Part shown: positions 29,187-31,943 of the stretch, piece by piece
Layout of the letters: each line of letters starts with the position of its first letter
How positions within the stretch are numbered: the first letter of the stretch is position 1
NCBI GenBank assembly: GCA_021829145.1
Contig: JAJZOE010000041.1
Coordinates: forward strand, 1-49,943
Length of the DNA stretch: 49,943 bases
From: a bacterium
Lineage (GTDB): Bacteria > Patescibacteriota > Saccharimonadia > Saccharimonadales > UBA4665
Direction of reading: 5' to 3'
Made by a program: the position numbers and the translations under genes
Notes under the pieces: model-generated
The model's database searches: none
Told to the model about the DNA's origin: nothing
Seen by the model: the letters and a program-made list of their open reading frames with translations, nothing else

Positions 29187-29216
29187 TTGCATGCATAACG
29201 CCATATATGATATAAA
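29187..29216 (+). promoter_or_regulatory. Promoter of the HTH-murA gene
   Basis: TTGCAT (29187-29192) and TATAAA (29211-29216) are spaced by 18 nt. Transcription should start near 29222, which excludes the upstream ATG at 29191 and supports ATG 29227 with a leader of a few bases. Confidence 0.5.
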
Positions 29217-29226
29217 AGGTTCAGAT

Positions 29227-30750
29227 ATGATTACGACCAATGAACAAATTGGCCAGCTTATTGCTCAAATTAGACAAGAACGCGGGCTTACACAAAGCGA
29301 ATTTGCTAAACGGCTTTCTACATCCCAATCTGCCGTTAACCGTATGGAACACGGAAGACAAAATCTTAGCTTAGAAACACTGGGAAGAATTAGTGAAGTC
29401 TTAAATAAACAGTTAATTAGCGTAACTGGAGTTGCGGTCAATTTAAGAATCGAAGGCGGGCATGAGTTAAAAGGTGAGATAACGCTAAAAACCAGCAAAA
29501 ACGCAGCCGTAGGGTTAATTTGTGCCAGCTTGCTTAACAAAGGAACTACCTTACTTAAAAATGTTCCTCGGATTGAAGAGGTTAATAGACTAATAGAAGT
29601 TCTACAAAGCATAGGAGTAAACGTAAAATGGCAAGGGGCAAACGATCTTAGTATAAAAGTTCCCAATAAATTGAATCTAGAAAACATAAACCATGAGTCT
29701 GCTAAGAAGACGAGAAGTGTCCTAATGTTTATCGGACCTCTCATTCATCGATCAAAGTCATTTATTATTCCTTATGCCGGAGGTTGTGACCTGGGTAGAC
29801 GCACAGTACTACCTCATCTTTATGCATTAGAAGAATTTGGAGCCGAGGTAGAGACAAAATCCGGGCACTACGAAGTAAAGGCCAAGCTACATTTACCCAA
29901 GCGGGACGTAGTTCTGTATGAGTCAGGCGATACTACCACGGAAAATATTCTGATGGCAGCAGCGCTAACCCCAGGAACTACTGTTATTAAGATGGCCAGC
30001 GCTAACTATATGGTTCAGGACTTGTGTTATTTCTTAGAGAAACTGGGCGTTAGGATAGATGGCATTGGAAGTTCTTCCTTAACTGTCCATGGTATATCTG
30101 AAGCCAATAAAAACGTAACCTACTCTCCAAGCGAAGATCCAGTCGAGGCAATGACTTTCATCGCAGCAGCCATTACTACCAATTCTTCAATAACAATTAA
30201 ACGCGCACCAATAGAGTTTCTGGAGCTGGAGCTTTTAAAGCTTGAGAAAATGGGGCTTAAATACGAAGCTAGTGCAAAATATAAGGCAAATAACAGCAAA
30301 ACCGATCTCGTAGATATACGCTTACACAAACACGACGGAAAGCTAGTTGCACCAGCAGAGAAAATCCACCCAAACGTCTTCCCAGGCCTTAATATTGACC
30401 ATCTACCCTATTTTGTACCAATTGCCGCCGTAGCTCACGGAAGGACACTCATACATGACTGGGTTTACGAAGATAGAGCACTTATGTATACAGAAATGAA
30501 AAAAATAGGGGTTAACTTGGAGCTAGCCGATCCTCACCGTATTTTTATCACTGGTCCTACTAGATTTAAGGCCGCGGATCTTGTTTGTCCAAGCGGCATT
30601 AGACCTGCAGTTATGCTTTTAATTGGGATGCTGGCAGCGCCGGGGATGTCCATTCTGCGCAATGTCTATACTATTAACAGGGGCTATGAAGACTTGGCTC
30701 AAAGGCTTAATTACCTCGGGGCGCACATAACAGTTTTAAATGAAGTTTAG
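29227..30750 (+). CDS. murA: HTH-MurA fusion: UDP-GlcNAc 1-carboxyvinyltransferase with N-terminal XRE domain
   Basis: Transfers enolpyruvate from PEP to UDP-GlcNAc, the first step of peptidoglycan synthesis. From ATG 29227 the 507 residues start with a Cro/C1-type helix-turn-helix (about 6-62: IGQLIAQIRQERGLTQSEFA, then STSQSAVNRMEHG), followed directly by the EPT-fold enzyme (about 70-507). Catalytic KNAA (91-94) and the active-site cysteine in AGGCDLGRR (C187) are present, as is GDTTTENILMAAAL. The enzyme alone would be about 430 residues, the usual size, so the HTH is an addition. A frame extension to ATG 29191 exists but lies inside the promoter. The DNA-binding domain may allow autoregulation; this is inference. 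Confidence 0.92.
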   Translation: MITTNEQIGQLIAQIRQERGLTQSEFAKRLSTSQSAVNRMEHGRQNLSLETLGRISEVLNKQLISVTGVAVNLRIEGGHELKGEITLKTSKNAAVGLICASLLNKGTTLLKNVPRIEEVNRLIEVLQSIGVNVKWQGANDLSIKVPNKLNLENINHESAKKTRSVLMFIGPLIHRSKSFIIPYAGGCDLGRRTVLPHLYALEEFGAEVETKSGHYEVKAKLHLPKRDVVLYESGDTTTENILMAAALTPGTTVIKMASANYMVQDLCYFLEKLGVRIDGIGSSSLTVHGISEANKNVTYSPSEDPVEAMTFIAAAITTNSSITIKRAPIEFLELELLKLEKMGLKYEASAKYKANNSKTDLVDIRLHKHDGKLVAPAEKIHPNVFPGLNIDHLPYFVPIAAVAHGRTLIHDWVYEDRALMYTEMKKIGVNLELADPHRIFITGPTRFKAADLVCPSGIRPAVMLLIGMLAAPGMSILRNVYTINRGYEDLAQRLNYLGAHITVLNEV

Positions 30751-31046: not shown

Positions 31047-31079
31047 CTAGTTTATCCACTATTTATACACAGAAACTAG
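31047..31079 (+). promoter_or_regulatory. Two DnaA-box-like sites inside an inverted repeat
   Basis: TTATCCACT (31052-31060, one mismatch to TTATNCACA) and TTATACACA (31063-31071, exact) lie in the same orientation 2 nt apart. They are enclosed by CTAGTTT (31047-31053) and AAACTAG (31073-31079). The sites end 17 nt upstream of the -35 box of the small RNA. No dnaA or dnaN gene is nearby, so this is not an obvious origin. Confidence 0.35.
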
Positions 31080-31088
31080 TGAAGGGTC

Positions 31089-31117
31089 TTGCATTAATCG
31101 GCTTCGACTAATATATT
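31089..31117 (+). promoter_or_regulatory. Promoter of the candidate small RNA
   Basis: TTGCAT (31089-31094) and TATATT (31112-31117) with a 17-nt spacer. The predicted start is near 31124, directly before the first stem-loop. Confidence 0.55.
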
Positions 31118-31123
31118 AATAAA

Positions 31124-31219
31124 TACCATCGTTGAGGTGGCTGTCATCGAAAGATGACGAGTAAATCAGAGATGATTTATTCAAGCAAATAAGCCTGGAA
31201 ACAGGCTTTTTGCTTTTTA
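31124..31219 (+). ncRNA. Candidate structured small RNA with four stem-loops
   Basis: A stretch of about 95 nt with its own promoter and an intrinsic terminator. Stem 1 is CCATC/GGTGG (31126-31140, one G-U), stem 2 is GTCATC/GATGAC closed by a GAAA tetraloop (31143-31158), stem 3 is a 10-bp helix around TAAATCA/TGATTTA with a GAGA loop (31159-31182), and stem 4 is AAGCCTG/CAGGCTT with a GAAA loop (31191-31208) followed by a T-rich tail, the terminator. No ORF is present. The downstream gene has a separate promoter after the terminator, which argues for an independent RNA gene and not an attenuator. I do not match it to a known class. Confidence 0.6.
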
Positions 31220-31239
31220 TGACTTATCTATTTGAGCTA

Positions 31240-31268
31240 TTGAAATTTCGTCCATTTTGTTGTACTAT
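31240..31268 (+). promoter_or_regulatory. Promoter of the hypothetical gene at 31275
   Basis: TTGAAA (31240-31245) and TACTAT (31263-31268) with an ideal 17-nt spacer. The -10 box ends 6 nt before ATG 31275, so the transcript starts at the start codon. Confidence 0.55.
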
Positions 31269-31274
31269 ATTAAT

Positions 31275-31943
31275 ATGCATCCTGGTGAAGTACTTGAATG
31301 GATTGAAACTGGTAATCCAATCGACCGACGTACCAGCTTCGAAGCCCTAAAGCTGGAGTTAGGCATAGACAGTGGTCTGCCAATGACTCATAGCGAGCGA
31401 GTCGATACGGTCAGGAATGCCATTGGTCTAGCCTATCTCAAACATTATATATGTCAACGAGGCGAAGCATCCGACGAAAACCCTAACTCTATAACAGACA
31501 GAGATCTAACCAGAGAAGGGCTCTCACAGCTCGGATTATTAGCTGTAGTGATACCAGGTGCCGGTAGTGAGAATGATAGATACATTTCCCAACATGAATA
31601 CGGAATTATTGGGGAGAAAGCAAATATGCACTCGGAGATTAAGATTACGATTAATTCCTTAACTATGCTTTGGAATGACCTCAGAAGACGTTACGTTAAG
31701 TTCGAGAGATTCAGGGAGAATATGTCACTAAATCCAACTTTATCAAGCGTTGATAGCTATCTTAAACATCGGTATTGGGAAGGACTATTTAGTCCTCAAG
31801 GCCTCATTTCTTTACATAAGATCATACCGGCAATCGAGAGCATAGGAGCCAATTCCCCTACATATATTCGGAATAAATCATTACAGGCCGGTTTAACAAT
31901 AGTTAAATTTATGAAAGATACTAATTTCCTCGGACAGCAATGA
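31275..31943 (+). CDS. Soluble protein of unknown function
   Basis: A 222-residue protein without signal peptide, membrane helix or cysteine cluster. I do not recognise the family. The composition is mixed charged, predicted mostly helical, with a Glu-rich middle (EYGIIGEKANMHSEIKI, about residues 113-129) and several conserved-looking aromatic/Arg pairs (WNDLRRRYVKFERFRE). ATG 31275 is chosen over TTG 31257 because of the promoter position. It sits alone between a small RNA gene and tRNA-His, surrounded by tRNA genes, a common address for mobile or lineage-specific genes. Confidence 0.55.
   Translation: MHPGEVLEWIETGNPIDRRTSFEALKLELGIDSGLPMTHSERVDTVRNAIGLAYLKHYICQRGEASDENPNSITDRDLTREGLSQLGLLAVVIPGAGSENDRYISQHEYGIIGEKANMHSEIKITINSLTMLWNDLRRRYVKFERFRENMSLNPTLSSVDSYLKHRYWEGLFSPQGLISLHKIIPAIESIGANSPTYIRNKSLQAGLTIVKFMKDTNFLGQQ

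Follow-up and report, generated by a model that had tools for sequence, protein, structure and literature searches.

A conserved small RNA gene with DnaA boxes upstream of its promoter in Saccharibacteria

In Bacillus subtilis, the small RNA ArrA is an antisense RNA that overlaps the dnaA leader and is repressed by DnaA (PMC12112137), and it is the only DnaA-controlled small RNA that our literature search found. DnaA may also act positively; at Escherichia coli nrdAB, DnaA bound at promoter boxes can activate transcription by stabilising RNA polymerase (PMC8203912). A review devoted to DnaA in its role as transcription factor makes no mention of small RNAs (PMC8203912), and literature searches for small RNAs of Saccharibacteria gave no description of a small-RNA regulator. 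Here, we analysed a stretch of 49,943 nucleotides from a member of the Saccharimonadales (UBA4665; assembly GCA_021829145.1, contig JAJZOE010000041.1), hereafter called the window. The sequence evidence indicates that it holds a real, independent and previously uncatalogued small RNA gene, with a predicted transcript (Table 1).

Table 1. Coordinates of the small RNA gene, its hairpins and its promoter region in the window
Feature	Position	Strand	Basis
DnaA-box-like site 1, TTATCCACT, which differs from TTATCCACA at one position	31052–31060	+	Same register as the strict boxes that relatives of the genus have at about −72
DnaA box 2, TTATACACA	31063–31071	+	Strict TTWTNCACA match; position −60/−61 shared with relatives
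−35 hexamer, TTGCAT	31089–31094	+	TTG- here in 39 of 41 loci
−10 hexamer, TATATT	31112–31117	+	Ends 6 nt before the predicted RNA start
Small RNA, predicted full length	31124–31220	+	Match to covariance model R1, E 3e-15 (by construction, the window sequence itself being among the model members)
Hairpin 1, ACCATC-GTTGA-GGTGGC	31125–31141	+	Class-wide conserved module
Hairpin 2, GTCATC-GAAA-GATGAC	31143–31158	+	Fold; compensatory change at two pairs
Hairpin 3, GAGTAAATCA-GAGA-TGATTTATTC	31159–31182	+	9 of 10 pairs changed on both sides in relatives
Hairpin 4, the intrinsic terminator, GAAA loop and T tail	31183–31218	+	Terminator scan; 10 of 14 pairs changed on both sides

Fold and conservation of the small RNA

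The RNA strand between 31118 and 31222 folds with an energy of −43.2 kcal/mol, as against −18.6 ± 3.2 kcal/mol for shuffled sequences (z −7.75), and none of 200 shuffles was as good. A first-pass annotation of the sequence had described four stem-loops, three of them closed by GAAA or GAGA. All four do fold, with the loops GTTGA, GAAA, GAGA and GAAA in order; the fourth stem-loop, however, is the intrinsic terminator itself, which leaves three stem-loops plus a terminator hairpin. The outermost A-C of hairpin 1 is left unpaired in the window, and the terminator hairpin spans 31183–31215 ahead of its T tail, with a core at 31191–31208 in the terminator scan. The element is uncovered by any ORF in the window, as had been claimed. 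Among relatives, no start codon occurs at a constant position downstream of the RNA, and a small ORF initiated from the GAGGTG motif was rejected because a start codon at constant distance was not found there.

At the gathering threshold, Rfam returned tRNAs only for the whole window, and at a relaxed threshold it gave nothing credible at the locus, which agrees with the earlier failure to match the element to tmRNA, SRP RNA, 6S RNA, RNase P or a riboswitch. Two known types of RNA were considered and rejected. The 6S RNA family (RF00013) gave sub-threshold matches in relatives that fall elsewhere in their genomes. As for an ArrA-like antisense RNA of dnaA, the energies of duplexes with the dnaA leader were no better than those of shuffles in 12 genomes.

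Clear relatives were found by DNA search in 14 of the 18 other genomes of the genus, and a covariance-model search, of the kind that the first-pass annotation had suggested, detected the RNA in 15 of 19 genomes, the window counted. The four genomes of the genus with no match are 63–85% complete. The counts of RNA-bearing genomes are lower bounds, because genome-wide searches ran with speed filters. The E-values of the models built here are rough, and sequences used for building a model match it by construction. In the genus alignment, 21 of 37 pairs have changed on both sides, a number that none of 500 shuffles reached, and 91% of the cells are paired, compared with 83% in shuffles and less than 50% in slid versions. 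The earlier reading had been tied to conservation of the stems and to compensatory changes in stems 2–4; the stems are conserved in relatives, and such changes occur mainly in stems 3 and 4, with some in stem 2. None occurs in stem 1, where the sequence hardly varies within the genus.

Another model, run alongside an exact-pattern search, extended the set of relatives to other genera and other families of the class, as well as to two genomes from other orders within it. In distant members, hairpin 1 takes the form NNCAYYGUGAGGUGNN and is followed by one or two stem-loops and then by the terminator. This hairpin is nearly invariant across lineages (CAYY-GUGA-GGUG), with GUUGA replacing GUGA in the genus of the window. 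Among 22 sequences from outside the genus, its loop and 3′ arm GUGAGGUG are invariant, its 5′ arm has two variable positions at which the letters still pair, and its two outer pairs covary. The RNA is not universal in the class, given that family f35, the largest sampled, yielded no convincing copy and that the matches inspected there were ordinary terminators. Its occurrence outside the class was rejected as well: of 69 pattern matches in named genomes, the 43 from other phyla had weak model E-values (best 0.026), and a strict DnaA box lay upstream of none of the 43, compared with 17 of the 26 Saccharibacterial records.

Genome G190 has the RNA twice, in two differing versions separated by about 46 kb (L260 1497–1516 and L244 ~1500; G190:C7). 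The idea that extra genomic copies of the hairpin might point to a protein-binding site was also considered and discarded; save for the true second copy in G190, the inspected matches were coding or due to chance.

Promoter and DnaA boxes

The promoter TTGCAT-N17-TATATT was correctly read at first pass, and it is of the sigma-70 type. In 39 of 41 loci, a TTG- hexamer is followed at a spacing of 16–18 nt by a −10 hexamer, and 7% of random windows fit the same arrangement. The distance from the end of the −10 hexamer to hairpin 1 is 6 nt in 32 of the 41 loci and 5–8 nt in all of them, and it is this fixed distance that makes it very probable that the RNA begins with hairpin 1. Together, the compensatory changes, the promoter fixed in 39 of 41 loci and the lack of an Rfam match support the original proposal of an independent small RNA gene.

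The first reading had missed the DnaA boxes (TTATNCACA) just upstream of the promoter, often present as a tandem pair 11–12 bp apart (11 bp start to start between site 1 and box 2 in the window). The consensus TTATCCACA is the published DnaA box (PMC8203912). Each of the 15 loci of the genus has a tandem pair at about −72 and −60, with one mismatch allowed in some, as do four loci from outside it (L045, L048, L053 and L054), while L039 shows a more degenerate version. The position of box 2 (−60/−61) is kept in the same 15 loci, in some with one mismatch, and in those four.

When a strict box was defined as TTWTNCACA, 48 were counted in the 5.3 kb just upstream of the promoter and 4 in the remaining 110.8 kb of locus sequence, a density about 250-fold higher. 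At least one strict box lies just upstream in 28 of 39 loci; about a quarter of the loci have none, so DnaA control would not be universal. When k-mers were counted with no prior motif, TATCCACA/GTGGATAA ranked among the most enriched words in the genus and also in the loci beyond it. The same type of box is found upstream of dnaA in most dnaA loci examined, and the density of boxes along the long contigs examined is about 0.01–0.1 per kb. A strict tandem pair was detected in 7 of 21 genomes searched, and 6 of these 7 genomes have no such pair anywhere but at this RNA; the window is not counted among them because one of its boxes is degenerate and the other strict. The box motif at the promoter suggests that the RNA gene is probably regulated by DnaA.

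The −35 hexamer begins with TTGC in 18 of 19 loci with an in-register box pair (four of five lineages), whereas it is mostly TTGAC in promoters without such a pair, and consensus TTGACA in some box-less lineages; this association between weak −35 and boxes is confounded by shared ancestry, with about five independent lineages.

Other elements were observed in the upstream regions. A third, inverted DnaA box lies at about −137 to −149 from hairpin 1 in eight same-genus loci (L003–L006, L008, L009, L013 and L014), and the word ACAGAT is repeated upstream in 10 of the 15 loci of the genus. Loci of family f37 (L059, L070, L071 and L260) share the element ACTACAACATT, or a similar one, about 60–75 nt upstream of hairpin 1, where it adjoins a weak or single DnaA box.

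Proposed mechanism and alternative explanations

In many loci of the genus, murA, tRNA-Gly and tRNA-Arg lie upstream of the RNA, and tRNA-His and a P-type ATPase lie downstream in nearly all of them; lineages outside the genus have other neighbourhoods. These differences argue for an action of the RNA in trans. They also agree with the first-pass view that the element is not a simple leader, as do six same-genus loci with no ORF of at least 80 codons between the RNA and tRNA-His. In the window, positions 29191–30750 encode a MurA-type enolpyruvyl transferase (EPSP_synthase domain) that carries a Cro/C1-type helix-turn-helix domain fused to its N terminus, and the downstream ORF (31276–31943) has no Pfam match.

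The RNA gene is conserved, and its structure, promoter and boxes are evident in the loci described above. We consider it fairly likely that its product is a stand-alone, fully folded, trans-acting RNA of about 95 nt, which is activated by the DnaA pair upstream of the −35 and works through hairpin 1. DnaA would bind the box pair just upstream of the −35, setting the activity of the sigma-70-type promoter. DnaA would most likely activate transcription, given that the pair stands at a position typical of an upstream activator and that promoters with an in-register pair mostly have a weak −35 (TTGC). The RNA, probably acting in trans, would use the loop and 3′ arm GUGAGGUG of its 5′ hairpin to contact a fixed partner, which may be a protein, the ribosome or an mRNA, and the remaining stem-loops and the terminator may be mainly a stabilising scaffold. 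Almost all of the RNA is folded, and invariance is confined to the loop and 3′ side of hairpin 1; binding to a fixed partner therefore seems likelier than classical seed pairing. With its DnaA boxes, the gene would probably link an RNA regulator to the replication state of the cell. Saccharibacterial genomes are small, and a widespread RNA with a near-invariant hairpin and a DnaA-box promoter offers a testable link between the initiator and an RNA regulator. A bolder extension, which we hold to be rather doubtful, is a branch of replication control that operates through RNA throughout the lineage, in which a DnaA-activated RNA would bring its GUGAGGUG hairpin to bear on the translation machinery or on a dedicated protein. 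If true, replication licensing would be coupled to protein synthesis by an RNA in very reduced genomes.

It is unlikely, though well conceivable, that the RNA is real but that the TTATNCACA sites are used by a different regulator, or that DnaA represses the gene, with a role unrelated to replication. The existence of box-less lineages with a consensus TTGACA promoter, the second conserved element ACTACAACATT in family f37 and the ability of DnaA to repress, as it does ArrA in B. subtilis (PMC12112137), are consistent with this possibility. However, unbiased counting arrived at the DnaA consensus, a word that these genomes also have at dnaA, and the boxes are located upstream of the −35, not across the promoter.

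Since the tandem DnaA boxes are unique in several genomes, the locus could instead be a DNA element of replication control, that is, an origin or a site of DnaA titration or reactivation, with hairpins that act at the DNA level or arose by chance. This we regard as very improbable. The compensatory changes are consistent with an RNA that has a promoter and a terminator in one direction, and dnaA, with boxes of its own, sits on other contigs. The GC skew keeps a constant sign around the RNA in G013 and G075, and no clear reversal is seen in the window. In G033, the RNA (L046, G033:C2 99495) lies about 10 kb from the maximum of the cumulative GC skew, a terminus-like position, and not at the minimum, near which dnaA is found; G013, G075 and the window showed no such terminus-like placement of the RNA. 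A replication origin was rejected: the evidence of the long contigs and the location of dnaA at a separate locus speak against it, and no skew minimum with a neighbouring dnaA was found at the RNA.

We give little credence to a Shine-Dalgarno mimic, in which the invariant GAGGUG would pair with the anti-Shine-Dalgarno CACCUC of 16S rRNA and slow translation initiation. The 3′ end of 16S rRNA is GGATCACCTCCT in G033, G360 and G356, and the pattern of variation in hairpin 1, with an invariant loop and 3′ arm and a 5′ arm that varies at two positions within pairing, would suit such a role, but GGUG is locked inside the stem, a start codon at fixed distance is absent, and the match, a lead noticed after the fact, is only 6–7 nt long.

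Least credible is the view that the element serves the downstream gene as a leader or attenuator, for although a same-strand ORF follows in the window, the element ends in a strong terminator and the ORF directly after the RNA differs or is missing among relatives. The promoter that the first-pass annotation had assigned to this ORF is present as TTGAAA-17-TACTAT (31240–31268), with 9 of 12 matching positions, but a match of this quality is no better than chance often gives.

Comparison with known systems

Like 6S RNA (RF00013), the Saccharibacterial RNA is a small structured bacterial RNA, but the locus has no 6S match. With terminated trans-acting bacterial small RNAs it shares its own promoter, stem-loops, a terminator and the lack of an ORF; it differs from them in that no free single-stranded seed is apparent and the conserved part is a folded hairpin. 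Both ArrA and this RNA are small RNAs with a DnaA-controlled promoter, a control that the boxes suggest in the present case, whereas the Saccharibacterial RNA is unlinked to dnaA, highly folded and without complementarity to the dnaA leader. As in nrdAB, the DnaA boxes are placed in the promoter region; nrdAB, however, is a protein-coding operon, and the product here is a small RNA.
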